DNA from: Anaerolinea thermophila
Lineage (GTDB): Bacteria; Chloroflexota; Anaerolineae; Anaerolineales; Villigracilaceae
Assembly: GCA_020721605.1 (NCBI GenBank)
Contig: DYML01000007.1
Span: 1 to 40,366, forward strand
DNA length: 40,366 nucleotides
Direction: 5' to 3'
This document shows positions 2,713 through 18,647 of this stretch, piece after piece (positions within the stretch are counted from its first letter, which is position 1; the number at the start of each line of letters is the position of its first letter). A program made the translations under genes and the position numbers. The notes below the pieces were generated by a model that saw nothing but the letters and a program-made list of their open reading frames with translations, was not told where the DNA came from and ran no database searches.

Positions 2713-3387
2713 ATGAACTGGCTGATTAACTTTATTATTCGAGTCTACACACGCATTACCTGCAAAATAGACGCCCCCAACCTGCAAACTACGCCAATGC
2801 AGGGCCCGTTAATTATTATCACCAATCACACCGGGCAAATTGAAGTACCCATGCTATACGCCCATCTCCAACCGCGTAAATTAAGCGGCTGGGCAAAAAG
2901 TGAAACATGGAATAACAAATTTCTAAACTGGGTTTTCGGCGTGTGGGGCATTATCCCTGTGCGGCGCGGTGAAGCGGATCTGCGCGCGCTACGGGCTGCC
3001 TTGCGCGCGCTCGAACAAGGATACATCTTTGGCATTGCCCCCGAAGGCACACGAAATCACAACGGAATATTAAGACGCGCCCTGCCTGGCGCAGTTACAC
3101 TTGCCCTGCACACAAGCGCACCCGTTCTGCCCATTGCGCACTGGGGCGGCGAGAATTTTATGCAGAATTTCAAGCATTTTAAACGCACAGCGTTTCACAT
3201 TCGCGTGGGCGAGCCGTTTAAGGTACAGGTTGAAGGAGTAAAGGTAACAGCGGAAATTCGGCAGCAGATTGTGGATGAGATGATGTACAAAGTGGCAAAA
3301 CTACTCCCTGAGCAATATCGGGGAGACTATTCAGACCTGAGCCTGGCAACAGAAAAATTTTTGGTGGAATGTGAACTGAATAAATAG
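2713..3387 (+). CDS. Lysophospholipid acyltransferase, PlsC family
   Basis: This 224-residue protein belongs to the 1-acyl-sn-glycerol-3-phosphate acyltransferase superfamily, which adds an acyl chain to lysophosphatidic acid or a related acceptor at the membrane. Motif I appears as NHTGQIEVP, where the usual NHX4D ends in Glu rather than Asp. The remaining blocks are present: GIIPVRRGEAD (motif II), APEGTR (motif III) and PVLPIAHWGGE (motif IV-like). The NHxxxxE form makes the acceptor uncertain. A second PlsC at 22878 has the standard Asp, so the two may have different substrates. It lies in a small lipid gene group. Confidence 0.82.
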   Translation: MNWLINFIIRVYTRITCKIDAPNLQTTPMQGPLIIITNHTGQIEVPMLYAHLQPRKLSGWAKSETWNNKFLNWVFGVWGIIPVRRGEADLRALRAALRALEQGYIFGIAPEGTRNHNGILRRALPGAVTLALHTSAPVLPIAHWGGENFMQNFKHFKRTAFHIRVGEPFKVQVEGVKVTAEIRQQIVDEMMYKVAKLLPEQYRGDYSDLSLATEKFLVECELNK

Positions 3388-3392
3388 GGCAA

Positions 3393-3821
3393 TTACAACT
3401 TCATTTGATAGGCGTTTGTATCCCGCTTTTTGAAGCCCATTCGCAAGTACAAGCGATTTGCCGCCAGGCGCAAGGGGTTGGAAGTGAGCGAAATATTCTT
3501 TGCGCCCTTCTCTCTGGCTGTTTCAATGGCGCACTTCATTAAGGCTTCGCCAATGCCCAATCCGCGAGCGGCGGTATCTACGATAACATCTTCAATAATG
3601 GAACGAACGCCGGTGGGGACGCGGTACACGCAAAGACTTAAAGCGCCGACAATTTTACCTGAGTCATCACGGGCTACCATCAGCGTGGAGGATGTCTCGC
3701 GGACGAGATCAGCCAGGTCGGCTAGAGAAGGCGGCGGGTTATTCTGGGTCAGTTGCGGAATCAAGCGCTGAAAAGCGCTGTGCAGTTCCTCGTCTGCCTG
3801 AGTCACAAGATCAACTTGCAT
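3393..3821 (-). CDS. GNAT-family N-acetyltransferase
   Basis: The 142-residue product has the GNAT acetyltransferase core: a central strand (IIEDVIVDTAARGLGIGEALM) carrying the acetyl-CoA pyrophosphate loop RGLGIG, followed by LTSNPLRLAANRLYLRMGFKKRD, which is the typical C-terminal Asn/Tyr segment ending in the GF turn. The start at 3821 overlaps the end of the phosphatidylcholine-synthase-like gene by 11 bases, so the two are probably translated together. It converges on the PlsC gene with only five bases between stops. The acetyl acceptor cannot be predicted. Confidence 0.82.
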   Translation of the reverse strand: MQVDLVTQADEELHSAFQRLIPQLTQNNPPPSLADLADLVRETSSTLMVARDDSGKIVGALSLCVYRVPTGVRSIIEDVIVDTAARGLGIGEALMKCAIETAREKGAKNISLTSNPLRLAANRLYLRMGFKKRDTNAYQMKL

Positions 3822-4539
3822 GGTTTTTTCGCTTGGGGATTAAACTCAATACCAGGTAATACGCCACATAAGCCAGTGATACCCAGACGATCCAACCGGG
3901 TGTGTGGGGATAGAGCATTAAGCCCCAAATACCAATGACTGCATAAAGATAGGTTAAGCCGAGCGTGAGGCGCCGCAGATAATTATTGCGGCTGGGGTAA
4001 ATATATTTAACAGGAACAAAAACCAACACGTTAAAGAGCATAAGAAAGCCAAAGTTCACCCAGGGCGGCAGGTTCATCAGCAGCATATAAAGCGCGGCAA
4101 CATTCCAATAAGATGGAAAACCTTTGAAATGATGGTCGTCAGTTTTTGCATCGCTCTGTGTAAATTGATAAGCAGAAGTCAGCAAGATGGTGAAGGCGGT
4201 AAACAATTTAACGGTGTCTGGCAGAAAGTCGGCTTTGATGAGGAAGAGGACTGGCACAAGGACATAGTTGAGGTAGTCTAAAATATTATCGAGCAGTGCG
4301 CCATCTACCCCGGTGGCGTATTTTTTCACATCTGCCCAGCGCGCCAACATACCATCGAAACCGTCCACCAGCATGGCGATGATCATGTAGAGAATCATCA
4401 ACTTGTACTTTCCGTCAAAAATAGCAAGAATGCCGAGCAGCCCCCAAATTGCGCCAGTGGCGGTGAAGAGATGCACACCGTAAGCGGCAATTGAGCGCAG
4501 GAGATTTGTTTTTTCTTTGAAGATGTCTGAAGCATTCAT
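3811..4539 (-). CDS. pcs: CDP-alcohol phosphatidyltransferase, probable phosphatidylcholine synthase
   Basis: This 242-residue integral membrane protein carries the CDP-alcohol phosphotransferase motif DGFDGMLAR, followed after 12 residues by GALLDNILD. That G-x3-D-x3-D block sits further from the AR pair than in most family members, which is the spacing I associate with bacterial phosphatidylcholine synthases. FPSYWNVAALYMLL is also a Pcs-like signature. About eight hydrophobic helices cover the protein. Pcs condenses choline with CDP-diacylglycerol to make phosphatidylcholine in one step. It overlaps a GNAT gene downstream. The superfamily is certain; choline as substrate is likely but needs an assay or phylogeny. 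Confidence 0.78.
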   Translation of the reverse strand: MNASDIFKEKTNLLRSIAAYGVHLFTATGAIWGLLGILAIFDGKYKLMILYMIIAMLVDGFDGMLARWADVKKYATGVDGALLDNILDYLNYVLVPVLFLIKADFLPDTVKLFTAFTILLTSAYQFTQSDAKTDDHHFKGFPSYWNVAALYMLLMNLPPWVNFGFLMLFNVLVFVPVKYIYPSRNNYLRRLTLGLTYLYAVIGIWGLMLYPHTPGWIVWVSLAYVAYYLVLSLIPKRKNHAS

Positions 4540-4701
4540 GGCGATGTCCTTATCAGTTGGAGTTTCTCCTTATTTTAATCGCATTGTGAGATTTTTCCCG
4601 ACATAAAAGACCTGGCGAGTTTTACAAATCTCCGAGGTTTTAGAGAACCCATGCCGCCAAGCGCCCGAAAAAATCAACCGCACCCCGACGCCCCAGCCTG
4701 C

Positions 4702-4804: not shown

Positions 4805-6259
4805 ATGAGCAATGCTTGGCAGACTTTCCTCCTTATCTCACCTTGGTTTTTATATTTGCTTTTAATCATAGGCTTGGCGTGGATTTATCTGGCAACCTCT
4901 GCAAACAGTGGCTTTAGGGGAGTGATAACCTACCTGACACATTTGCTTATTTTTGTTGTAGGGTGGGGTTTGGGAAAATGGCTGGGAATTTTACTAATTT
5001 CATTTCCTATATTAATTTACTATTACTATATGCTATTCCATCTTTCCATGGTGGTAGTCCCAATCTCTGACCCCGATATTTTTAGCGATTGGTGGCTACG
5101 TTTTTTAATCTTCGTTCGTTACCAATGGGGCGTTCAATATCCGCATTGGATGACAGCAGAAACAACAGGCGGAAAAATTGAAAAACGGATTAAAGGCGAT
5201 CAGTTTTCTTTTTTTACCCCTGGGTTGATCTCCGCACGTTCACATCAAGTAATAGGAATCACTACCGGCATGACGTTTTCTCGCGTGCCAAACCCAGGCA
5301 CGATCTTCACCAAGCGCTATGAAAGCCCCCTGGCAGTTGTGGATTTAAGAACCCAAATACGGTCTGCCTGGATTGAAGTAGTATCCAGCGATGGCATACC
5401 ATTTTGGGCATTATTATTTACTGCCTTCCGAGTAGACCAAGAAAATTGGAGCCGAGAACTGTATCACAAGTTGCGCAGACAAAACCCCCTATTTGAAAAC
5501 GCGCACAAGCCAGACTATCAACAAGGCGCCTATCCCTTTTCCAAACCGAGGCTTCAGGCTTTATTCAGCACCATCGGAGTCAGTTCACCTGAGAACATAA
5601 ATGAAGCGCCGCGAACCCTCTCATGGGATGAGCGGGCGTTTAATCAAATTGAAAAGACCGCACGCGAAGCGCTTTCGCAGCGCAAAATTAATGAATTATG
5701 GCAGCCCCAGAACGATAATGATGGCGCCAGCGCAATGGATGAAATTGCCATTGAAATTAAAGAAAACTGCACCGATGACCTTCGGCGGCGCGGAATTTTG
5801 GTATACGCTTCCAGAATTGTGGATGTTGAATTCCACAAAAATGGAGAGCCACACCACGAGGAACAGGAAAAAAATGGAGACGCTGAAATCAACTCACCGC
5901 AAAATACAGAACAAGCGGGAGAAGAAGACCCAATTGCACAAAAGCAAATCACAGCCTGGAGCATTGACTGGCAGCGCGAGGCAACCAAAACCCGCGCAGA
6001 AGGCAAGGCACATGCCGACTTTCTAACGCAAGAAGCACATGCCTATGCATACACCACCCTGCTAACCGCTTTTGCCGAAGGCATGGAAGAAGCCCGCCTG
6101 CTCGACCCTCAACTTCCCCGCTATGTCATCGCCGTCAGATTTGTCGGCGCCCTCGAAAAAATAATCGGGCAACAATCAGATACTCAAGCCATAAGTGAAG
6201 CGCGCGCTTCACTTGATCAAATAAAAAAAATGATACCCTGGGGTATGGATGGAGGCTAG
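4805..6259 (+). CDS. Membrane protein with SPFH/band-7-like domain (first of pair)
   Basis: The first ~90 residues hold three hydrophobic helices (LLISPWFLYLLLIIGLAWIYL, LLIFVVGWGLGKWLGILLISFPILIYYYY). A cytoplasmic part follows in which VPNPGTIFTKRYESPLAVVDLRTQIRS and then VVSSDGIPFWALLFTAFRV look like the start of an SPFH/band-7 domain: a PG turn, the VDLR strand, and the switch to a sequence 'for the substituted input'. The middle (residues ~330-390) is charged and low-complexity (HHEEQEKNGDAE), and the C-terminus is an Ala/Glu-rich helix (ADFLTQEAHAYAYTTLL) as in band-7 proteins. SPFH proteins form membrane scaffolds. It is the first gene of a nine-gene block and is followed five bases later by a second SPFH-like gene. 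Divergence is high, so the domain call rests on pattern. Confidence 0.65.
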   Translation: MSNAWQTFLLISPWFLYLLLIIGLAWIYLATSANSGFRGVITYLTHLLIFVVGWGLGKWLGILLISFPILIYYYYMLFHLSMVVVPISDPDIFSDWWLRFLIFVRYQWGVQYPHWMTAETTGGKIEKRIKGDQFSFFTPGLISARSHQVIGITTGMTFSRVPNPGTIFTKRYESPLAVVDLRTQIRSAWIEVVSSDGIPFWALLFTAFRVDQENWSRELYHKLRRQNPLFENAHKPDYQQGAYPFSKPRLQALFSTIGVSSPENINEAPRTLSWDERAFNQIEKTAREALSQRKINELWQPQNDNDGASAMDEIAIEIKENCTDDLRRRGILVYASRIVDVEFHKNGEPHHEEQEKNGDAEINSPQNTEQAGEEDPIAQKQITAWSIDWQREATKTRAEGKAHADFLTQEAHAYAYTTLLTAFAEGMEEARLLDPQLPRYVIAVRFVGALEKIIGQQSDTQAISEARASLDQIKKMIPWGMDGG

Positions 6260-6264
6260 CCAAC

Positions 6265-7590
6265 ATGTCTTTTGAACGCGGTAACGAATCTGTCAGCACC
6301 TGGCTGCGTTTCTATTTTGCCATTCGCTCCCTAAACCGCAGTTTTCGTCAAATTCTGCTTGTGAGCATTCCTTTAATAGCCATTGCCATGTGGGTTTCTT
6401 TTGTCTTCCTACTCTTTTTCCATCTTGACGGACATGCGCCCGAATTTACAGAAAAGCCGTCATTTTTTTCCTACCTGATCTTTACGCTGCGCTTTGCCCT
6501 GCCTGCAATACTATCAATTTTAATTGGCGTTTATTTTTTGTTAAACAGGGCGCATGAATATATTTTCACTCTCTACCAGCCTTTGCCTGAAACCAAATTA
6601 GAAATAAAGCAACGCATCTGGCATCGGCTTTGGGGCTGGCATGGACTTCTTCTATTTCAAAACTATATGGTTGTGAACAGCACCAACCTCGAACCGAGCA
6701 ATCATTGGAGCCTGTGGCTTGGCGGTCCTGCTTTTTTAATTATTTATGATGGATTCGCCGTTTACCTGGAACGCGGCAATCGCTTCTCGCGCATCGTTGG
6801 CGCCTTTCCCATTACCTATCTTGATGCGCGCGAAACGATAAAAGGAATCGTTGATCTGCGCCCTCACACACGCTGCGGCAAAGTGACAGCGTGGAGCAAA
6901 GACGGCATTCGCATTGAATTTAAAATATGTGTTGAATTTCAAATTGAACCTGGGCTGCCAACCCACAATGCAAATGAAAAACTACTCTACCCTTTCAACC
7001 CGCTCGCTGTGCGAAAAGCAGTTGAATACACGGCTGTCGGCGCGCACGATGGAAAATTGCAAGAAGTAGACTGGTGTGAAGGCGCCATGGGCAGAGTTAA
7101 AGGAATTATTGGACGGCACGTTTGCAGCCGCCGTATTGATGAATTATTCTTAAAAAACGGAGGCGGAGGACAAATGCTTTCGCCCACTGTAACTACAGAA
7201 TTAATGGAAAAAATAAACGCGCGTCTTGTCAAAGATGCGGGCACACGAATGCTCAGTTTACAAATTACAGATATTACCATCCCCCTCGGCGTGCGCCGTC
7301 AGCGGCTGGATGTGTGGGAGGCTGAAAAAGATAGTTTGATTACCCGTGTTCGGGGCGAATCACAGGCGTATGAAATACGCACAAATGAAGCCGCAGTGGC
7401 AAAAGGTCAGCGTGATCTCATTGTGGCAATTGCAAAAAATTTAAAGAGAATAGACCCATCCCACTTTCCCGAACCTTTGCTTTTATCTGTATCGGGCATT
7501 TTAGATCAAGGATTAAGAGACCCATTGGTTCAAACCTATATGGCAAAGGGAACCTTAGATTCTTTGAAAAAAATTCAAGATCTACTCTAA
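6265..7590 (+). CDS. Membrane protein with SPFH/band-7-like domain (second of pair)
   Basis: This 441-residue protein has two N-terminal membrane helices (ILLVSIPLIAIAMWVSFVFLLFF and FALPAILSILIGVYFLLN). A band-7-like domain then begins with GGPAFLIIYDGFAVYLERGNRFSRIVGAF and continues through GIVDLRPHTRCGKVTAWSKDGIRIEFKICVEFQIE, the VDLRPQ-like strand and the KDGI-containing strand pair expected of SPFH proteins. A helical region with GTRMLSLQITDITIPLGVRRQRLDVWEAEKDSL follows, again as in the family. The start has GGAGG nine bases upstream. It resembles the preceding protein in layout, so the pair may form a hetero-oligomeric scaffold for the ATPases encoded downstream. Confidence 0.72.
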   Translation: MSFERGNESVSTWLRFYFAIRSLNRSFRQILLVSIPLIAIAMWVSFVFLLFFHLDGHAPEFTEKPSFFSYLIFTLRFALPAILSILIGVYFLLNRAHEYIFTLYQPLPETKLEIKQRIWHRLWGWHGLLLFQNYMVVNSTNLEPSNHWSLWLGGPAFLIIYDGFAVYLERGNRFSRIVGAFPITYLDARETIKGIVDLRPHTRCGKVTAWSKDGIRIEFKICVEFQIEPGLPTHNANEKLLYPFNPLAVRKAVEYTAVGAHDGKLQEVDWCEGAMGRVKGIIGRHVCSRRIDELFLKNGGGGQMLSPTVTTELMEKINARLVKDAGTRMLSLQITDITIPLGVRRQRLDVWEAEKDSLITRVRGESQAYEIRTNEAAVAKGQRDLIVAIAKNLKRIDPSHFPEPLLLSVSGILDQGLRDPLVQTYMAKGTLDSLKKIQDLL

Positions 7591-7608: not shown

Positions 7609-8616
7609 ATGATGAACAATGAAATTACCGAGATATTGCAAGAGTATCTCCTCATTGAAGAAGATTCCTTAAAACATATTTTGCTGGATATATTGGATCT
7701 GTGCAAAAGCGAAAGGGGCGCCAGCGACGCCATTGTTCAACTTGAATCCACCCTGGAAGATTACTCTTCCGGTCTCGAATTTCTTGACCGCGTTCCCCTT
7801 TATTACATATTTTTATCGTATGCACAATATAAATGGGGCGAATTCCCCAACTCTATAAATTCGGCTTCCAACGCGCTTCAAGGCTTTAAACAAAAAAACA
7901 ACATTAGAAACAGCGTCATTGCCCTGTGGATGCGCGCACTACTCCACCAGGAAAGCGGTCATATTGACGCGGCGAGAGACGACACCGCCAGTGGAATTAA
8001 TTTGGCTGAGAGAGAATTGGAAGACAGCAAACGCACCAGTCATTATAAAGAATTAGAAGACTCCAAAATTATTTATTCACGAATGCTCGCTCTTCGTCAA
8101 TGCCTAAATTCCGGTTTTTCAAAATCATCGTACGCTCCCCAGCCGCAATTTTCATTCCTGTCTTTTCCAATTTACACACTTCACATCACACCCGAAGGAA
8201 AAATTGCATATGAAAACGCTCCCCAGGGTGAAGTAATTGTTCAAACTTTAACCATCAAAGGTTTGCCGCACACAATCCATAGCCTCAGCAATTGGTCCGA
8301 AGTAATTATGCGCCCGGCTGCCTATCGTTGGCTCCAAATTCAAGGGGACGGAATGGACAACGCCAGACCCATCCCCATTTTAGACGGAGATTGTGTCCTC
8401 GTAATAGACATCCCGCGCGGAGATTACAAACCGCACTACGGAGAAATTGTCATTGCCGCCAGACATACCACAGACAATAAAGAAGAACCCGCGCTGCTCA
8501 AACGCTTTAACCGTGAAGGGCTATGCTCTGAAAGCAAAGAAAACCACCCGATCATTGCGCTGCAAGATGTATCCCTTTATGGCTTGGTAATTGCAGTTGC
8601 AAAACAGGTTAAATAA
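7609..8616 (+). CDS. TPR-like protein with S24/LexA-like domain lacking catalytic Ser
   Basis: Residues ~55-150 form paired helices of TPR type (PLYYIFLSYAQYKWGEFPNSINSASNAL...). The C-terminal ~150 residues resemble the LexA/S24 fold: LQIQGDGMDNARPIPILDGDCVLVI, GEIVIAA, ALLKRF, NHPIIALQDVSLYGLVIAV. In S24 proteases the first block reads GDSM with the nucleophilic Ser; here it is GDGM, so the Ser is Gly, while the Lys of LLKRF is kept. It is therefore probably a non-proteolytic sensing or docking domain. A second ATG at 7612 has better spacing from the GAGGA site, so the true start may be one codon later. It lies between the SPFH pair and the ATPases in the same block. Confidence 0.68.
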   Translation: MMNNEITEILQEYLLIEEDSLKHILLDILDLCKSERGASDAIVQLESTLEDYSSGLEFLDRVPLYYIFLSYAQYKWGEFPNSINSASNALQGFKQKNNIRNSVIALWMRALLHQESGHIDAARDDTASGINLAERELEDSKRTSHYKELEDSKIIYSRMLALRQCLNSGFSKSSYAPQPQFSFLSFPIYTLHITPEGKIAYENAPQGEVIVQTLTIKGLPHTIHSLSNWSEVIMRPAAYRWLQIQGDGMDNARPIPILDGDCVLVIDIPRGDYKPHYGEIVIAARHTTDNKEEPALLKRFNREGLCSESKENHPIIALQDVSLYGLVIAVAKQVK

Positions 8617-9084: not shown

Positions 9085-9141
9085 ATGCCGACTAAAAATC
9101 AAATAAAAATGTTTGAAAACATCATTTCAAAGGGGGCGTGA
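9085..9141 (+). CDS. Candidate 18-residue leader peptide ORF
   Basis: ATG at 9085 follows a GGGAG site by nine bases and encodes MPTKNQIKMFENIISKGA. Its TGA overlaps the ATG of the ATPase gene at 9141 (TGATG), an arrangement that often couples translation. It is too short for the ORF track. It might regulate the downstream gene, be a genuine small protein, or be chance; the Shine-Dalgarno site and exact overlap are the only support. Confidence 0.3.
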   Translation: MPTKNQIKMFENIISKGA

Positions 9142-11468
9142 TGAAATATACCAAATTTTGGACTCCGCCCGCCTGGCTGGAGCCATCCTTTATTTTTATG
9201 GCATTTTTTGTTGCCGCCACAGCAGCGATGGCGCTTGTATTGTGGTTTCTCGTCACCTTTGTGGTTCCTTTTAATTTATACACCAAACAAACTGACTCTA
9301 TTATTTTGAACAATGGTCAGACGCTTCAAGTTGAATATCCAAACTTGGTATTGGTTGAAAACACACCAGCATACATTACTTTCATACTCCACGGCGAATC
9401 AAACGCAGTCGTTCCCGCGTCTTTCACCGTACAAATTCCCGTGGGATTAACCGTCGTAGAACCCTCAGCGCAGGCTCACACCAACAGTTTAACCATAACC
9501 GCCTTCGGGCTGGGCAGCGCAACCAAGCCAGACCAAATAAAAATTGGGGTTACAAATTCACACTCAATGAACAGCCTTTTGCTTTTTGTTCGCCGCCCTT
9601 TGATCATTAACTCAAATTTATTTTTGAGCGCACAAAAAATCCAAATAGGAATTGAGACCATTCGCTGGGTATCTGCCCGTGAAATTGTAAAAAATACAAT
9701 TAATGAAAAAAGCACCCTCATTTTATTAGTAACCGGATTTTTATCTGGCGCGGGAGCATTAATACTTCAATACACCAAAACATATCGTGACCGTCTCCGC
9801 GAAGATCGACAAAAAAAGGAAGAAAGATTTTATAAACTTCTCCAGCAAGATTTTGAAGGCGCTATAAGCGCATTTTTGCGAACTGGAAACGGCAGCCAAT
9901 TGCAAGATGATGATTTCATCATGTACAAAACATTGGTGGAGCAATTTAATTGGTATCATAAATTATCCGCCAATATCCGTGAAAATCTTAAAAGAAAAAA
10001 ATTTACCGAAGCCAGACGGCGGGTGAAAAATTTAAAAGAACTGAGCAAACTTGTCTCCGAACTGCAGGATGAGGAAAAAAATGAAATACAGATTTTATAT
10101 GATCTGTGCGAACTCGCCTCCATTTATGACCGCAAAAATAAAACATTGTCTCTGCAAGAGGTCGGCATTCTCAAATCGGCTTATCGGCGTTGGAATGATC
10201 TAGCCTCCATCATCACCGACTTAATTCAAGACTTCTCCTCTTCTCCGGGAAATTATTTTTTATTGCGTGATGTATTTCAACAAGACAAAGACGGCAAAAA
10301 GGTCTTACAAAATTCAAACCTGCAATATGTGATGGGAAAATGGCCCCAAAAAAAATTTGACGAACTTGGCAAGGAAGCGCTTGAAATTGCATATTCGCTT
10401 CACTGGCGACTGTCATGGTCTGGCATGGAAAGAAATTTATCAGAGAAAATTCAACGATGGCTTTCAGGGCATCGGTGTGAAACGCCAGACGCTCATACCA
10501 ATTTGTATCTCGGCTCTGAATATGCAGAGTTGGACTACAAATTAACAGAAATTGCCATTCAACATCCCGTTTTTAACCAAATCCACGAACCCTCTCCCTC
10601 CATTGTTTTTGGCGCAGAAGGCATGGGAAAAACAGCCTCTGCGTTGCGATCCGTTAAGATGTGTCAAAATTGGGCAAACTCAGGCGGGCGGCTTCCAAGA
10701 GTCTTCCCTGTTTATGCTCCCTTTGAACCTGGCGTCAGCGCAAAAAATTTTCTGGTAAAAAAAATTTCACACACGCTGATTAATTTTATATCTGATAACC
10801 CCAGAAGATTTCTCAACGCCCCTTCTGCTCAAAAGACTGCGATGGGGAGGTTAATGTTGCATTACGCAAAAAACATGGACATTTTGCGTCTCAACTTTTT
10901 TAGTTCCCCGTTTGAAAATTTTTTTAGCGACACAGAGCAGGTTCTTCAGTATATTTCAAACCTTGGCTATTCACCCGCAAATAGAATGGAAAAGGATGAA
11001 ATGCTAAATCTTCTTTATCTGGCTCTACCAGACGGCTTTGATCATATTTATTTTTTTTGGGATATTCAGAGTTGCGCCCCGCAAGCCGATATGATCGGTC
11101 AGGTAAAAGAAATTGAAAACCTGGCACTGCCGCTCTCAAGACAGAATATCTTTATCAAAATATTTTGCCCGCTGACAGCAAAGTACGCCTTAAAAAAACT
11201 GAACGGATTTCACCATCTAAGCGATATTAACTGGACAGAATCTCAATTAAGAGAATTAATAGAAACACGGATCAAAATGTTTGATGTTCTCTGGGAACGT
11301 GGGGTTGAAGATTCGGTCAGCCTGGTGGTATCTGCCGCGTCCTCTTCGCCGCGCCTCGCCATTCGGCTCTTGATTGCCTTGTTTGATTATGTGGACAAAC
11401 ACTTTCAAGAAGGCGATAAATTAAGCAAATATATATTTGATGAAGTTGTATCCACCCTGCAAGAGTAA
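9141..11468 (+). CDS. Membrane-anchored P-loop ATPase with an extracytoplasmic domain
   Basis: I use the ATG at 9141 (AAGGGGG site upstream) instead of the GTG one codon before. Residues ~15-43 are a membrane helix and ~195-217 a second (LILLVTGFLSGAGALILQY). The ~150 residues between are beta-rich (FTVQIPVGLTVVEPS...) and presumably outside the membrane, like an Ig-type domain. Inside, a long helical region precedes a P-loop domain with Walker A GAEGMGKTA (~residue 490) and a Walker B-like strand FDHIYFFWDIQS (~632). The motif context (PSIVFGAEGMGKTASALRS) matches that of the next two ATPases, so the three look like paralogues of the AAA/STAND class. The topology suggests a transmembrane sensor that signals through its NTPase. 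Function unknown. Confidence 0.72.
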   Translation: MKYTKFWTPPAWLEPSFIFMAFFVAATAAMALVLWFLVTFVVPFNLYTKQTDSIILNNGQTLQVEYPNLVLVENTPAYITFILHGESNAVVPASFTVQIPVGLTVVEPSAQAHTNSLTITAFGLGSATKPDQIKIGVTNSHSMNSLLLFVRRPLIINSNLFLSAQKIQIGIETIRWVSAREIVKNTINEKSTLILLVTGFLSGAGALILQYTKTYRDRLREDRQKKEERFYKLLQQDFEGAISAFLRTGNGSQLQDDDFIMYKTLVEQFNWYHKLSANIRENLKRKKFTEARRRVKNLKELSKLVSELQDEEKNEIQILYDLCELASIYDRKNKTLSLQEVGILKSAYRRWNDLASIITDLIQDFSSSPGNYFLLRDVFQQDKDGKKVLQNSNLQYVMGKWPQKKFDELGKEALEIAYSLHWRLSWSGMERNLSEKIQRWLSGHRCETPDAHTNLYLGSEYAELDYKLTEIAIQHPVFNQIHEPSPSIVFGAEGMGKTASALRSVKMCQNWANSGGRLPRVFPVYAPFEPGVSAKNFLVKKISHTLINFISDNPRRFLNAPSAQKTAMGRLMLHYAKNMDILRLNFFSSPFENFFSDTEQVLQYISNLGYSPANRMEKDEMLNLLYLALPDGFDHIYFFWDIQSCAPQADMIGQVKEIENLALPLSRQNIFIKIFCPLTAKYALKKLNGFHHLSDINWTESQLRELIETRIKMFDVLWERGVEDSVSLVVSAASSSPRLAIRLLIALFDYVDKHFQEGDKLSKYIFDEVVSTLQE

Positions 11469-11525
11469 TGATAAAAATTATTTACACACGTACCGCAGCC
11501 ATCTATTGCCGGGTTTTATAAAAAA

Positions 11526-12869
11526 ATGCACAAAGATAAAGGTCTCTCAATTTTTATGACAAAAAATGCCGAGGCTGAACCCTGGCTAACTCAACACGCC
11601 TTTGTTGCCCCGCCAGATTTTGAATCCTTCACCAACTTTAACTCCAGTATTATTTATGTAAAAACAGGGGATGGAAAAACTGCCCTCTGCCAGGCTTTGT
11701 CTCAATATGCTCTTAATCAAATTCAATGTATGCCGGTTTCCTGGTCGCCCAATTTAACCTGCAATTTGCATGGTTCAGTCACAGACCTGGCTATGGCACA
11801 CTTCTCGAATATTCTTTCTGCCTGTGCCAGCCAAACTTTACATCGGTTGATGATTGCCCCCCAAAAACAGCAAAAGGAATGTCTGGCGGCTGGTTTTATC
11901 CCCCAGTTTCTACATCAATTTGCCATCGGCGAAGATCAAAAAATTATAAAAAAACAATTCAGCGCATCGAAGCCGTTTTCAATGAGCAAAAATATAGACC
12001 TGGTTACGCTTGCAACACAACTCATTAATGGCATTAAAAACATGGGGTTTTCTGGCGGAATTTGGATCATCGTGGACGGAGCAACGTGGACTTCCGCCAT
12101 CGAAAAACAAACCACGGTAGATGCTCTGCTCGCAATTCTCTCCACACTTCGCTTATTTGAAATTCAGGGTTTTCATTTTAAGATGGTTTTGCCCATTGAA
12201 TTGGAAAGAAACTTTTCTGAAATTCTCTCCAAAGATAAATGTCGGGTGATGATCTCCAGGGTTTCATGGGAAAAGAAACATTTGCAGCAGATGATTGAGA
12301 AACGCCTGCGGTTTGCCTTACAAGACACCGAAGCCAGCGTAGCGCAGATCTACGCTGCCGATGACTTATTTACCTGGCTTACCGCATGTAGCGGACTTTC
12401 GCCGCGCGGCTGGCTGGAATATTTCCGCCCCATATTTGCCACCGTTTGGGAAATTTATCAAACAGAGGGGCTGCGTATGCTGCAAAAAGATGAATGGATC
12501 GCAGCCCGAAAACGATCCTCTTTGCAATTAAGGTTTTACCCGGACTTAAATCAAATTGTGGTTGGGCAAAACGCCCCACAAACACTTTCGCAAGAAGAGA
12601 TGGCAATTTTTTCTTACTTGTATAAAAACGAAAATCAATATTGCACCAAACGCGAAATTTACAACAAGGCATATCTGCCATTTAATGTAAATAAGCAGAG
12701 CAAAGAAATAAGCGCACAGGACGATCTTCCAAAAGAATATGACGACCTCGTAAACACAGCCATTCACCGTTTGCGCAAATCCATAGAACCATTGCCCAAA
12801 GAACCTGTCTTTATTACCATGAAGAAAAACCTGGGCTACCGCCTTTCCCTTCAGGCATTTTACGAATAA
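11526..12869 (+). CDS. P-loop ATPase fused to an OmpR-type winged-helix DNA-binding domain
   Basis: The N-terminal part has a P-loop-like YVKTGDGKTALCQAL (~residue 45), in which the first Gly of GxxxxGKT is replaced, and a Walker B-like strand GGIWIIVDGATW (~177). The last ~110 residues match the OmpR/PhoB effector domain: LRFYPDLNQIVVG, LSQEEMAIFSYLYKNENQYCTKREIYN, a recognition helix around DLVNTAIHRLRKSIEP, and the wing FITMKKNLGYRL. There is no receiver domain. This makes it the likely transcriptional output of the block, with DNA binding tied to an ATPase that may bind nucleotide weakly. It shares ATPase style with the genes on both sides. An internal ATG at 11556 is an alternative start. 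Confidence 0.72.
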   Translation: MHKDKGLSIFMTKNAEAEPWLTQHAFVAPPDFESFTNFNSSIIYVKTGDGKTALCQALSQYALNQIQCMPVSWSPNLTCNLHGSVTDLAMAHFSNILSACASQTLHRLMIAPQKQQKECLAAGFIPQFLHQFAIGEDQKIIKKQFSASKPFSMSKNIDLVTLATQLINGIKNMGFSGGIWIIVDGATWTSAIEKQTTVDALLAILSTLRLFEIQGFHFKMVLPIELERNFSEILSKDKCRVMISRVSWEKKHLQQMIEKRLRFALQDTEASVAQIYAADDLFTWLTACSGLSPRGWLEYFRPIFATVWEIYQTEGLRMLQKDEWIAARKRSSLQLRFYPDLNQIVVGQNAPQTLSQEEMAIFSYLYKNENQYCTKREIYNKAYLPFNVNKQSKEISAQDDLPKEYDDLVNTAIHRLRKSIEPLPKEPVFITMKKNLGYRLSLQAFYE

Positions 12870-13013
12870 ACCATGTTAGTTTGTTGTTGGTTGGGCGCAA
12901 GATACATAAAAGACCCACAAGAGTTTTTTTCGCTACAATGATGCAATCTTAAGACCCTGTTAAAACGGGCGCTGTTTATATTTTATTTGCACTGTGATTT
13001 TGGCGCGGCTTGA

Positions 13014-14267
13014 ATGGTCTTTGACATGGACGAGATAAAAATAATGAGCAAAGAACAAAAAAAATCCATCCTGCCAGAAACCGCGCTCTCTAACTGGCTT
13101 TCCCGCATGGGATTGAATTTAAACCCTTTTGAATACATAGATGCCGGAAAAGACCCGCTGATTCCCAATTACCTGGTAGATCACGATCAATTTGCAAATG
13201 TGAGCGGCGACCAGCCATCTTTCATATTTGCGCCCGCCGGAGGCGGCAAGACCGCATTTCGCGTGCGGCTGGCGGGGGATTGCCGTGCGGGCAGGCAGGG
13301 TCACAAAATATTCCCTGTCATTTACCAGCCCACTGCGCCCGCTGTTCAAGGTCAAGATAACTATCAATTGGAAAAGACCCAGCGCACAGACCTGTTGCGC
13401 TTTGCCTGCCAGGAATTGCTCTTGTACCTGGTTTATCACCCATACTTGCTTGAAGAAATGCCCCTGGCGCTTCGCCAAAATTTTCTCCAAAATTTATCCT
13501 GGGGCTTGGATTTTCCACTTGCCTATTATCTTAACCAAATAAACAAAGCAAAGAGCCTCGAACCCATTCTCGCCGCATTTGATCCTACTGCCCGTTCATT
13601 GCCCAACCCGCCAGGCATGGAAGATATTAAATATCTTTATAAAAAATTAAACCACTCCCCCCCTCCGACTGGGCGTAAACCGAAAATTGAAAAAAGATTT
13701 AATATCCTATTTGACCTGATTCTCAACCAACTAAAGTTCGAATCTGTTTATCTTTTGATTGATGGCGTAGACGCATTCTTTGAAACCGCAAACAACCCCC
13801 AGTGCACACTTGGTACAATTTCCTGGCTGTTAAATAATGCGCCGCGTTGGCAGCAGGAGCATATTTACCCAAAATATTTTTTGCCCGATCAAATGTATTC
13901 CGCAGTGATGGCAGACCCAGGTTTTCATCTATTGACTTCGATGAGCAAAATCACTATCATTAAATGGAACGCAAAAGCGCTTGGCAAAGTAATTCAAAAA
14001 AGATTACAAGATGCCAGCGACGGCAAGTTTGACAGCCTAACAGCCATCAGCGACCGCGCCCTGCGCGCCTCTGGACATTCACCAGAAGAAGTAATAATCA
14101 CCGATTTTTGCAGGCTAAAAAAAATAAGCCCGCGCAGCCTAATTCGGTCTGTAGATTGGTTGTTCACCCACCATGTTCGGCATGAACAGCCGCAAGCCAA
14201 ACTTACCCCGCAAGACCTGCAAGCCGTGCGCAAATGGATTCGCAGCGAGTATTCTGCGAAAAAATAA
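13014..14267 (+). CDS. Predicted P-loop ATPase (AAA/STAND-like)
   Basis: Walker A is FAPAGGGKTAFRVRLAG (~residue 72) and Walker B is SVYLLIDGVDAFFE (~245). The N-terminal lead-in (NPFEYIDAGKDPLIPNYLVDHDQFANV) and the P-loop setting resemble the two preceding ATPases, but no membrane helix or DNA-binding domain is present. The C-terminus is helical (GHSPEEVIITDFCRLKKISPRSLIRSVDWLF) as in the lid/sensor region of this class. The start is uncertain: ATGs at 13026 and 13044 are in frame and none has a strong ribosome binding site. It may be the soluble partner of the membrane ATPase. Role unknown. Confidence 0.68.
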   Translation: MVFDMDEIKIMSKEQKKSILPETALSNWLSRMGLNLNPFEYIDAGKDPLIPNYLVDHDQFANVSGDQPSFIFAPAGGGKTAFRVRLAGDCRAGRQGHKIFPVIYQPTAPAVQGQDNYQLEKTQRTDLLRFACQELLLYLVYHPYLLEEMPLALRQNFLQNLSWGLDFPLAYYLNQINKAKSLEPILAAFDPTARSLPNPPGMEDIKYLYKKLNHSPPPTGRKPKIEKRFNILFDLILNQLKFESVYLLIDGVDAFFETANNPQCTLGTISWLLNNAPRWQQEHIYPKYFLPDQMYSAVMADPGFHLLTSMSKITIIKWNAKALGKVIQKRLQDASDGKFDSLTAISDRALRASGHSPEEVIITDFCRLKKISPRSLIRSVDWLFTHHVRHEQPQAKLTPQDLQAVRKWIRSEYSAKK

Positions 14268-14320
14268 TGTACCAAGCCGATTTTGATCGGCGGACAATCT
14301 GGTTTTGGCGACTGGGTTAA
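14267..14320 (+). CDS. Candidate 17-residue aromatic-rich peptide ORF
   Basis: The ATG overlaps the TAA of the preceding ATPase gene by one base (TAATG), and the ORF encodes MYQADFDRRTIWFWRLG. It fills much of the 94-base gap before the next gene. No Shine-Dalgarno site is obvious, but start/stop overlap can allow re-initiation. A perfect 6-bp hairpin (GCCGAT/ATCGGC, 14276-14291) lies inside it, which may be its real function. Coding status is doubtful. Confidence 0.2.
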   Translation: MYQADFDRRTIWFWRLG

Positions 14321-14361
14321 GGTTGCAGTTGCTCACATCACTGGCGTGGGGAGCGTTTTCA

Positions 14362-15564
14362 ATGGCTACTTTCAGTTCTGATGAGTTTGTAAACCGCGAA
14401 GAAGAACTTAAGCACATAAAAGATAAAATTGTTAGGCTGGCGCGAGGCGACCCTTTTGCCCCAAAAGAAAGGGTCTTTCACTTGGTTGGACCATCGGGAA
14501 TAGGCAAAAGTTGCCTGCTTGAGGAGTGTTATCAATTTGTCAATTCTCTCCCGCAATCCATTCCCATATTGATCAAGTCCTACCCGCTTAGAAAAAAAGA
14601 CGGAGAATTTATAGAAAATTTTCTATTGGCAGTCTGCGAAGAATTTTATAAAAATCAAAAAAAAATAGTTTTAAACAAAAGCGGAAGAACATTACTTAAA
14701 TTTGGCGCCGATATTACAAAGCGTATTAACGAATATGCTGAAGAGCATGTTGTTGTTCTTCTTTTAGATGAAATGGACATCCATCAAAAAGAAGTATTGC
14801 AGTCAATTGAAGAACATTTATTGGAAAATCTGCTCGAAAACAGCAAGCGCGTTATGCTCATTACCGCAGGCAGAGAACCCGCAGCGCTAAATGTTTTTTC
14901 TCTACGCCCCGGACCGGAGAATATATTCAAACTCGCTGTCTTTGACGAAAAAAATACAACCAGACAGTTGGAAAAACTCAATCCAAAATTAGTGCGCATC
15001 GCGGGCAAAATTAGAAAATTAGGCGGGGGAGTTCCTGGAAATAACAAAAGGTTGGCTGGGCTGGTATCTGGAGAACCTTTGGATATTTTGGATGACCTGC
15101 AAGCCATTCAATTTTTATTGATTGATATTAAGCAAAAAATTGAAAAGCCATTTCATTTCATAGTGGAAGCCATTTGCATTTTGTCCGATTTTCACCCCGA
15201 AGATGTTGCGCCCTTACTTGAAAATCACCCGGCGTTGGGCGGGCAATGGGACGAGATTCGAATTAGAGAAGTATTTACCAATCTCAGACAGGCTCGAATT
15301 GGACCAGGCGGTTTAATTAATTGGGATAAAGAAAAAAGAAGCTGGGTGATGGAAGAACCAACACGTAAAATATTTGAGTTGGAATTGCAGCTGCAAGATG
15401 TAAACTTATGGAAGCAGTTACATTGCACCGCGTATCAAATGTATCAAAAGTGGGGCGAGGAATTAAATTCGCAACTGTACAGACAAAAAGCAATATATCA
15501 TCGGCAGTGCCTGCAATCTATGGGGTACGATTGTCTTAATCTCCAAGCGAGGGATGACCAATGA
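14362..15564 (+). CDS. STAND-like P-loop NTPase
   Basis: I start at ATG 14362 (MATFSSDEFVNREEEL), preceded by GGGGAG, rather than the TTG at 14305 in the track. The protein opens with the FVNREEEL motif common at the front of STAND and AAA NTPase domains. Walker A HLVGPSGIGKSCLLEE (~residue 42) and Walker B VVVLLLDEMDI (~133) follow, then an Arg-rich helix ending a sensor strand (RVMLITAGREPA). The C-terminal part is helical without an obvious repeat. Its stop overlaps the start of the large STAND-TPR gene (ATGA), so the two are co-translated. Such NTPases act as nucleotide-driven switches; the ligand is unknown. Confidence 0.75.
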   Translation: MATFSSDEFVNREEELKHIKDKIVRLARGDPFAPKERVFHLVGPSGIGKSCLLEECYQFVNSLPQSIPILIKSYPLRKKDGEFIENFLLAVCEEFYKNQKKIVLNKSGRTLLKFGADITKRINEYAEEHVVVLLLDEMDIHQKEVLQSIEEHLLENLLENSKRVMLITAGREPAALNVFSLRPGPENIFKLAVFDEKNTTRQLEKLNPKLVRIAGKIRKLGGGVPGNNKRLAGLVSGEPLDILDDLQAIQFLLIDIKQKIEKPFHFIVEAICILSDFHPEDVAPLLENHPALGGQWDEIRIREVFTNLRQARIGPGGLINWDKEKRSWVMEEPTRKIFELELQLQDVNLWKQLHCTAYQMYQKWGEELNSQLYRQKAIYHRQCLQSMGYDCLNLQARDDQ

Positions 15565-18500
15565 AAAAACAAGAGCATGGAATGGAATACGCGAGCGCCC
15601 GCGCAACCCCCAGCCTGGTGGGGCGCAAAGAAATCCTCGGCATTATCAATAGAGCCATTGAAGATAAAAGTGACCAAACCCAGATCATCTATATCACTGC
15701 ACGAGGCGGCATGGGAAAGACCCGCCTGCTTGAGGAAGTATTAAAACATTGGAACACGGCAAATAAAAGCAAATCAAAAAAGACAACCAAACTGATCAGC
15801 GTTCAACACCTTATAGATTTGTATCACACGCATACGCATAGTGAAGAGGGCTTGATTGCCGAAATTGTAGATGCGCTGGACCCACAATCAAAATTGTTTA
15901 CCCGCTACCCTAAAAAACGAGCGGAACTCACACACATGAAATATCAAAAAGGAGAAATACAGCCCATTCAACGCCTGCGTAAAGAAATGGAAGATGTCTT
16001 TTTGGAAGAATTGAATGAACTGGGCGGAAAATACGCCAAGATTGTTTTGGTCTTTGACACAGCCGAAGTTCTAACCTATGAGACCGACCGAGTTCAAAAA
16101 GCGCTGGGTCTGGCAGATCACCCCATTGGCGTGGCACGCTGGCTCACACAGGGATTTCTTAATAAAATTCGCAACGCAGTGGTATTAATTGCAGGACGAC
16201 CAGAAGACACATCCAAACAATTGATGGCAGAATTGACAAAGACCGTCTCAAAGGTGCTGGAGTACCCCCTGCCTGGTTTTAGTGAAGACGAAACATTTGA
16301 GTATTTTAAAGTAGTCACCGAAGCGGTTCGCGCTGAAAATGCGCAAAGCGCAAAGCGTATTGAAAGTATTCCAGAACAAACATTGCGGGCAATTCATCAC
16401 CTTACCGGCGGAGAGCCGTTTGTCCTTGCTCTATTAATTGACTACCTCGCCATTGCAAAAGAAATTCCATCCTTGACAGACCGAAGCCCGGAAATTTTTC
16501 GTGAAGAACTGCGCGACCTGATCGTGCAGACCATTCAAGAGGATTGGCGCCCATTAGATCAGGTTGTTGAGGCGCTTTCGTGGGCAACAAAAGGCATGGG
16601 CGCCGAACTTCTTGCCTGGGTTCTTCATCACCACGAACCAACTGAAGAAGAGATTAATAATGCCCAAAATAACATCCACGCCTTGCGCCAGTGGGAACGG
16701 CGGCTATCCTTTGTAAAAATTCGCGCGGCAGATGACCTGGTTTTTCTTCAAGACGAAATGTATGCCTTAATGGAGAAAATTCACAAAGAACCAAACGAAC
16801 TTGTGAAACGAAACAAAACATATAAAGACATCCTCGCATTTTATGAATGGAAAATTGGTCAGGCTCGCGCCAAAATTGAAGAGATGGAAAGAAACCTGCA
16901 ACTAATAGGAGAAATTACATCAGACAAATTAGCGCAGCCAGAGCAAAGCAACATTGCGCCCGAAGAAGAGAAAATGCGCAGAGCACGCGCTCTTTTACAG
17001 GCGTATCAAGTAGAACAGGTATATTACACATTGCAGGCAAATGTGCTGGAAGGTTTTAGACTGTATTCTCAATACGCTGAAGAGTCTTTTCAAAGCCGCG
17101 ATTTAAACCTGTGGCTCTTATTGCGTGACGAATTACTTCGCTTTGCCAATAAACCCGGCAGCCAATCTTCACTGCCTCTGAATGACATTGAGTCAGACAT
17201 AGGAGTTCGATGGATAAAAATTAGCCTGGCGGATGATGATTATATGGAAGCACAGCGCCAAATTACGCGCTTTCGTGAAACTTGCGCCGACCTGTTGCAA
17301 GCAGGAAGTTACGCCGACTTAAATTTAAAAATATGGGAAGCGCAGATTTTAATATATACCGGAAAGCAAAACGAGAAGGCGCAAGAACTGCTACATGAGA
17401 TTTTAACAAAGTCAGACCGCCTGCCTTCTGAAACCAGCCTAGATCAGTGGCGCATCAGTTTCTTAAGAGCCTACGCTATTTATTGGCAAGGCTATTTATA
17501 TCGAATGAAAGGCGAATTTAAGCAGGCAGTGGATAAATACTTGCTGGGGCTGCCCATCTGGCGCAACCTGAACTTCAAACTTGAAGCAGCCACCAACCTA
17601 AATGACCTCTCGTGGGCAGAAGCGGAAATGGGGGCGTTTGAATCCGCGCTTGTGCATTGTAACGACGCATTAAATCTGCGGCGCAAATTGGGCAGGCGCT
17701 ATCTGGTTGCCTTTAGCCTAAACACCCTGGGCTTAATTGAAACGCGGGCTGGTGCCCCCGAAAAAGCGCGCTTTCGCTGCGAGCAGGCGCTAAAAATCTT
17801 TCGCGGAATGGAAGATGCGCGTGGAACAGGTCTGGCTTGTCACGCCCTCGCAGAATCTCTGCGTAGAATAACCAACGGCGATTTATTAAACTACGAACAA
17901 ACCATAGACCACTTGCGCTTAGCCGCCGCCCGCGCCGAAGAAGCCGTTGGGATTTTTAGCAAACAAGTCCTTGAACCATTGCGCCTGACAGAGGCTTATA
18001 TTGAAGTTGGCTGTGTCTACCGAGAATGGGCGCGACATTTACCGCTTCGTAATTTTGAATTACTGGACAAAGTTGAAAAATGCCGCGCCGCGTACGAATC
18101 TGCTGTCTCTGTTGCCCAAGAAGGCGGCTACGAATACCGCGCCATAGATGCCCTCGTCAATTTAGCTTGGCTTTATTATTATGTGGGCGATATTGAAAGC
18201 GCAAAAAATGTACTGCGATCCAGAGTGCGTAGTTACCTGGGAGATGAGCATCTGTACACAACTGCACACGGTGTAGATGAAAGCCAGGCGCCAACCTCCT
18301 GGAATTGGGTGCAACTGGGCAAAACCAATGTACTGCTGGGAATGATTCATTTTGATGAATACAAGCAGGTTAATGGATTAAAAGAAAAAAATATGGCAGA
18401 ACAAAAACTGCGGCAAGCAGCCCACAACTGGACACTTTCCATGGCATATAATAGTTTGTACGGCAAAGACTTCCGCGATTTTGCCAAAGGACGAGACAAA

Positions 18501-18647
18501 GTGTATGAACGCCTGGGGCAACTCAACACCGAGGAAATGCGTTGGATTGTAGAAAGCATGAAGCAAACTCATATTAACTATCACATAGCAGAAGAGCAGA
18601 GAGCCTTTGAACAATTGTTAAAAAATCGCTTTGGATTATTGGTTTGA
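15561..18647 (+). CDS. STAND NTPase with C-terminal TPR array
   Basis: The 1028-residue protein has SLVGRKEILGIINRAI, Walker A YITARGGMGKTRLLEE (~residue 48), Walker B KIVLVFDTAEVL (~162), an LIAGRPED sensor strand and TGGEPFVLALLIDYLA, the GxP motif typical of STAND NTPases. A helical linker follows, then TPRs from about residue 630 to 930 (AIYWQGYLYRMKGEFKQAVDKYLLGL, AATNLNDLSWAEAEMGAFESALVHCNDAL, AFSLNTLGLIETRAGAPEKARFRCEQAL). STAND-TPR proteins sense ligands through the repeats and oligomerise on ATP. No enzymatic effector domain is visible. Downstream is a radical SAM gene eight bases away, a pairing that resembles FxsT/FxsB of FxSxx-COOH systems. Confidence 0.85.
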   Translation: MKKQEHGMEYASARATPSLVGRKEILGIINRAIEDKSDQTQIIYITARGGMGKTRLLEEVLKHWNTANKSKSKKTTKLISVQHLIDLYHTHTHSEEGLIAEIVDALDPQSKLFTRYPKKRAELTHMKYQKGEIQPIQRLRKEMEDVFLEELNELGGKYAKIVLVFDTAEVLTYETDRVQKALGLADHPIGVARWLTQGFLNKIRNAVVLIAGRPEDTSKQLMAELTKTVSKVLEYPLPGFSEDETFEYFKVVTEAVRAENAQSAKRIESIPEQTLRAIHHLTGGEPFVLALLIDYLAIAKEIPSLTDRSPEIFREELRDLIVQTIQEDWRPLDQVVEALSWATKGMGAELLAWVLHHHEPTEEEINNAQNNIHALRQWERRLSFVKIRAADDLVFLQDEMYALMEKIHKEPNELVKRNKTYKDILAFYEWKIGQARAKIEEMERNLQLIGEITSDKLAQPEQSNIAPEEEKMRRARALLQAYQVEQVYYTLQANVLEGFRLYSQYAEESFQSRDLNLWLLLRDELLRFANKPGSQSSLPLNDIESDIGVRWIKISLADDDYMEAQRQITRFRETCADLLQAGSYADLNLKIWEAQILIYTGKQNEKAQELLHEILTKSDRLPSETSLDQWRISFLRAYAIYWQGYLYRMKGEFKQAVDKYLLGLPIWRNLNFKLEAATNLNDLSWAEAEMGAFESALVHCNDALNLRRKLGRRYLVAFSLNTLGLIETRAGAPEKARFRCEQALKIFRGMEDARGTGLACHALAESLRRITNGDLLNYEQTIDHLRLAAARAEEAVGIFSKQVLEPLRLTEAYIEVGCVYREWARHLPLRNFELLDKVEKCRAAYESAVSVAQEGGYEYRAIDALVNLAWLYYYVGDIESAKNVLRSRVRSYLGDEHLYTTAHGVDESQAPTSWNWVQLGKTNVLLGMIHFDEYKQVNGLKEKNMAEQKLRQAAHNWTLSMAYNSLYGKDFRDFAKGRDKVYERLGQLNTEEMRWIVESMKQTHINYHIAEEQRAFEQLLKNRFGLLV

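Follow-up and report, generated by a model that had tools for sequence, protein, structure and literature searches.

A TPR-S24 protein without the catalytic serine and cut site of its relatives, encoded in an SPFH operon of Anaerolinea thermophila

LexA, lambda CI and UmuD (MEROPS family S24) carry their S24 domain, with its GxSM...K block, at the C-terminus of a two-domain layout; LexA, the SOS repressor, cuts itself at an Ala-Gly site. Related proteins that have lost these features are also described. The LexA protein of Synechocystis PCC 6803 reportedly has neither the Ala-Gly site nor the dyad Ser and yet regulates genes in a non-cleaving mode (PMC7567884), and Streptococcus SipA is a pseudo signal peptidase that has lost its dyad and acts in pilus assembly without catalysis (PMC4049620). 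Besides that, operons combining SPFH genes with NfeD/ClpP-type proteases (stomatin-NfeD/ClpP) are known (PMC2636767); S24 or LexA are not mentioned there, and no paper describing an SPFH operon with a TPR-S24 gene was found among the open-access papers searched. Here, we analyzed such a gene of Anaerolinea thermophila within a 40,366-nucleotide stretch of DNA (contig DYML01000007.1 of assembly GCA_020721605.1), referred to as the window.

The gene occupies the third position in the order SPFH-SPFH-TPR-S24, starts 18 bp after the end of the second SPFH gene and encodes a protein of 335 amino acids. The AlphaFold2 model of the full-length protein, built from 45 homologues, reached a mean pLDDT of 91.4 and divides it into helices (residues 2-168), a floppy linker (171-175) and a beta domain (183-333). 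Because a full-length Foldseek search returned weak TPR matches only, the C-terminal domain was modelled by itself (pLDDT 94.2). Its best PDB matches were C-terminal fragments of lambda CI, namely 2ho0 (E 5.8e-4, prob 1.00) and 1f39 (TM 0.72 by target, 2.8 A), along with LexA 3k3r, and the SipA structure 4n31 appeared as a weak match. For residues 2-168, the top PDB matches were TPR proteins, all with E above 1e-3; likewise, the family profile resembles TPR chains in its first half and LexA in its second. The Pfam Peptidase_S24 model (PF00717) matched the window protein with E 6.9e-4 and 19.8 bits, under its gathering score of 23.3 bits, while the closest orthologue scored 23.0 and another family member 47.3 bits. 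In contrast to this weak Pfam match, the homologue profile aligns the window protein end to end. No DNA-binding domain was seen in the protein, the LexA-type N-terminal winged helix being replaced by the TPR-like helices. The predicted structure confirms its place in the S24 (LexA/CI/UmuD) fold family, as the initial annotation, made from the sequence alone, had proposed together with the TPR-like N-terminus and the missing DNA-binding domain.

Table 1 Features of the TPR-S24 gene and its surroundings, in positions of the window.
Feature	Position	Strand	Basis
SPFH/Band_7-like membrane protein 1, conserved operon	4805..6259	+	weak Band_7; L075 homologue above cut-off; profile, synteny; N-terminal hydrophobic stretches
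SPFH/Band_7-like membrane protein 2, conserved operon	6265..7590	+	L075 homologue Band_7 1.6e-8; profile, synteny, hydrophobic stretches
TPR-S24 gene with putatively inactivated S24 domain, 335 aa	7609..8616	+	intact frame
TPR-like helical repeats of the N-terminal half, residues 2-168	7612..8112	+	AlphaFold2; PDB fold and profile matches to TPR
Low-confidence linker, residues 171-175	8119..8133	+	AlphaFold2
S24/LexA/CI-fold C-terminal domain, residues 183-333	8155..8607	+	Pfam (weak), AlphaFold2, Foldseek
Scissile Ala-Gly position, here Ile193-Thr194	8185..8190	+	alignment
Nucleophile position, Gly248 (codon GGA) instead of Ser	8350..8352	+	alignment, codon reading
General-base Lys298 kept, in LLKRF	8500..8502	+	alignment
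Membrane P-loop ATPase, C-terminal half weakly Sll1717-family-like, role unproven	9138..11468	+	
P-loop ATPase, weakly Sll1717/DS41_1-like, winged-helix C-terminus	11526..12869	+	
P-loop ATPase, DS41_1-antiphage/Sll1717-like under cut-off	13014..14267	+	

To compare the active-site residues, we used a homologue alignment of 45 rows including the window protein. At the nucleophile column, 43/45 rows carry Ser, and all 43 keep the Lys and an Ala at the scissile column; their scissile pair is mostly Ala-Gly, with Ala-Ser, Ala-His, Ala-Thr or Ala-Asp in the remainder. The window protein reads GDGM at residues 246-249, and its Lys298 aligns with the Lys of the 43 Ser homologues, so that both the replacement of the catalytic Ser by Gly and the retained downstream Lys motif LLKRF, noticed previously, are borne out. 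A second loss had been missed: the equivalent of the scissile Ala-Gly is Ile193-Thr194. Among the Ser homologues, 22 columns show a conservation of 80% or more and just five are invariant (scissile Ala193, Ser248, Met249, Lys298 and Ala329); the window protein retains three of these (Met249, Lys298, Ala329) and has lost two. The spacing from Ala to Ser in the family (53-62 aa) is near that in the LexA protein of the same genome (about 47). Judged from the alignment, the self-cleavage apparatus is dismantled in the window protein, with reading frame and predicted fold persisting. With the nucleophile and the cut site both gone, the protein is predicted to be unable to cleave itself by the S24 mechanism.

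Homologue searches covering genus, family, order, class and phylum located full-length TPR-S24 relatives mainly in one Chloroflexota family and rarely elsewhere in the class, and none in the viral contigs, plasmids or phages searched. A GTDB scan with the window protein alone gave no match; using a two-sequence alignment, the sole match was the already known closest orthologue. This orthologue, from genome G307 of another genus within the same family, shares the three-gene operon with the window, with 65-67% identity for the two SPFH proteins and 57% for the S24 protein, and carries GDSM, Ala-Gly and Lys. The Gly, for which fixation among homologues had been considered, is not fixed in the family, because even the closest orthologue has Ser. 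Only one further row has Gly at the nucleophile column, namely L113 from a genome of another genus (G350). Here, Asp-Gly is found at the scissile position and the Lys is changed to Arg, compared with Ile-Thr and a retained Lys in the window row. The two Gly rows lie apart in the tree, where well-supported branches force two separate changes; the Ser losses in the window lineage and in G350 are independent.

As a next aspect, we considered the genomic context. An SPFH profile was grown from the second operon gene of the window and applied to neighbours that had been fetched by the S24 search alone. An SPFH gene was found directly upstream of the TPR-S24 gene in 47 of 52 assessable loci, and four further loci end at contig edges. 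Several loci have a KAP NTPase/QatA-like gene ahead of the SPFH pair: a gene of 416-457 aa precedes the pair in L069-L073, L077, L078 and L080, and the L073 copy, the one tested, encodes a QatA-like KAP P-loop NTPase. A PHP-domain phosphoesterase gene adjoins the operons tested (L073, L075). In the window itself, the S24 gene is followed by five consecutive P-loop NTPase genes (9138-18647) and then two radical SAM genes; of the NTPases, three are weakly Sll1717/DS41_1 anti-phage-like, one is AAA_16 and one NACHT/TPR. We rejected a link between the Gly and a neighbouring Sll1717 ATPase as not specific, since the Ser members L152 and L158 carry the same ATPase. Two unusual architectures were observed in other loci. 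An ATPase-TPR-S24 fusion with GDSM and a TAAGEP site (L098:9475-12054) suggests S24 domains in STAND-like proteins, and at L087:2191-3192 the TPR-type half of the family apparently carries a fused TIR-like N-terminus and lacks an S24 domain, with an in-frame stop reported by the search. Upstream of the operon, the block 2713-4539 is matched in 51/57 congeners and homology ends near 4540 in the congeneric loci compared. Therefore, the operon and the following row of P-loop ATPases resemble an island that adjoins core genes.

Based on the substitutions seen, the predicted fold, the gene order and the second, independent loss in G350, we propose with moderate confidence that the window protein is an S24 pseudopeptidase. 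It would act as an adaptor bound to an SPFH scaffold at the membrane, self-cleaving in its relatives and permanently uncut here. The ancestors would have combined a TPR adaptor half with a LexA/CI-type self-cleaving domain and would have been expressed together with two SPFH scaffold proteins of the membrane. Throughout the family, the TPR half would most likely dock on the SPFH complex, which would serve as a membrane platform, or on a partner; upon a putative signal, the S24 domain of the relatives would cut itself at Ala-Gly, separating the TPR and S24 halves and thereby switching the complex. In the window lineage, the changes from Ser to Gly and from Ala-Gly to Ile-Thr would have fixed this switch in the uncut state, and the protein probably serves as a binding component that always stays uncut. 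The initial annotation had likewise suggested a former self-cleaving sensor turned into a binding or scaffold part. Here, the loss of cleavage is well supported by comparison with the 43/43 Ser homologues, whereas the "sensor" and "scaffold" roles are inferred, with some support from the SPFH operon context, to which that annotation had not referred.

Comparison of closely related genomes revealed sharp exchanges at this position of the operon. Genomes G020 and G072 (L075/L079) are 98-100% identical at the DNA level over both SPFH genes, the TPR half and the SPFH gene that follows, and differ only in the S24 half (50-80% DNA, 59% protein identity), in which Ala-Gly, Ser and Lys are kept in both; between L075:9808-11061 and L079:9503-10762, one domain has thus been replaced with sharp boundaries. 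G351 and the genome of the second Gly case, G350, share 97.5-98.6% identity to either side of the slot, but the stretch running from the end of SPFH2 through the S24 gene differs completely: it holds an Sll1717-family ATPase and the dead TPR-S24 gene in G350 (L145:4598-7625) and a 626-aa TPR protein without S24 in G351 (L160:7307-9983). In another pair, L121 and L122, the S24 halves are 85% identical and the TPR halves just 50%, and L005/L023 show the reverse pattern (99% and 59%); by these identities, the TPR and S24 halves evolve as modules of their own. Swaps with such sharp boundaries are a typical trait of conflict systems, though they do not prove one, and the swapping of the slot or of the S24 half suggests such a role. 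It is conceivable, and we put it forward tentatively, that one Chloroflexota family possesses, in the form of the SPFH-SPFH-TPR-S24 operon, a conflict system that is anchored in the membrane, probably directed against phages and so far undescribed. Its S24 half would be an exchangeable self-cleaving recognition domain and the window allele a non-cleavable one.

The window gene could accordingly be a swapped-in allele of a hypervariable conflict system, whose slot behind the SPFH pair takes interchangeable recognition domains, inactive S24 alleles among them. This is a possible though rather doubtful explanation; it is compatible with a permanently uncut adaptor and concerns the role of the whole operon. 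The exchanges in both genome pairs, the KAP/QatA-like and Sll1717 ATPases nearby and the start of the window operon just beyond the core block are in line with it. However, the swaps seen were all between loci of other genomes, and PADLOC and curated NCBIfam models gave no S24 or SPFH match of weight, with the neighbouring ATPases under cut-off.

Another explanation could be decay towards loss, with an S24 half that is no longer needed and a gene that is an early pseudogene with its frame still intact. The catalytic residues are gone, the other Gly case (L145) is separated from its SPFH genes by the inserted ATPase and has lost the Lys too, and SPFH-SPFH-TPR operons without any S24 domain exist (L157, L160). 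When differences were polarised, the C-terminal half showed 30 derived sites on the window side versus 12 on the orthologue side. However, the N-terminal half is not accelerated (19 versus 18), and the window lineage is faster in the SPFH genes as well (99 versus 57). The contrast between the C-terminal half and the SPFH genes is not significant (p 0.37), and the acceleration was rejected as proof of decay; at most, the counts point to a mild relaxation of the C-terminal half. Together with the full-length frame close behind SPFH2, the confidently predicted fold and the retained Met249, Lys298 and Ala329, this makes decay unlikely, and we infer that the uncut form is useful.

It is also improbable that the S24 domain of the family acts as a peptidase on another protein instead of as a self-cleaving switch, with the window copy as a decoy or an inactive regulator. 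Proteases (NfeD/ClpP type, FtsH; PMC2636767) are the classical partners of SPFH proteins, so an SPFH-linked processing enzyme would fit. Nevertheless, the family has a LexA-type Ala-Gly motif at the expected place before the Ser, and the Ala, present in 43/43 Ser members, is lost exactly with the Ser (2/2 versus 0/43, Fisher p 0.001, from few events); this conservation and joint loss point to cleavage in cis. A second S24-TPR copy acting in trans was not found in the same genome (86% complete), which yielded only LexA. Finally, the draft state of the genome (86% complete, 219 contigs) could be invoked for a Ser codon that was misread in sequencing or assembly. This is highly implausible, because GGA is at least two base changes away from every Ser codon (AGC in the closest orthologue), which excludes a one-base slip, and because the cut site, which lies 55 residues upstream, is altered as well. 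For the same two reasons Gly248 is not a trivial point mutation, even though homologues do have Ser at this site, which the initial annotation had regarded as a sign of a local mutation.

The loss of nucleophile and cut site under retention of fold and operon represents a natural experiment outside the SOS response, which separates the cutting role of an S24 domain from its binding role. Such an operon would link LexA-type self-cleavage with SPFH scaffolds at the membrane, a combination that the papers searched did not contain. With cassettes being exchanged between genomes that are nearly identical, a role in phage conflict can be tested directly.

In comparison with LexA, lambda CI and UmuD, the family shares the C-terminal fold, the GxSM...K block and the C-terminal placement of the S24 domain, and the Ala-Gly site is present in the relatives of the window protein. 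Unlike these proteins, the family has a TPR half in place of the DNA-binding domain and an SPFH operon, and the window protein has lost Ser and Ala-Gly. The LexA protein of the same genome (G000:C179) has an S24 domain with Ala-Gly, Ser and Lys, but is an ordinary SOS repressor with a DNA-binding domain. Synechocystis PCC 6803 LexA is similar to the window protein as an S24 homologue lacking both features; it differs as a DNA-binding transcription factor that is regulated by modification and has no SPFH link. SipA shares a related Ser-Lys protease fold with lost catalytic residues and has a non-enzymatic role in assembly, but belongs to family S26, is extracellular and has Asp and Gly in place of Ser and Lys. 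Finally, the SPFH-protease operons resemble the window operon in uniting membrane scaffold genes with a protease-type partner, which in the window is an S24-TPR protein.
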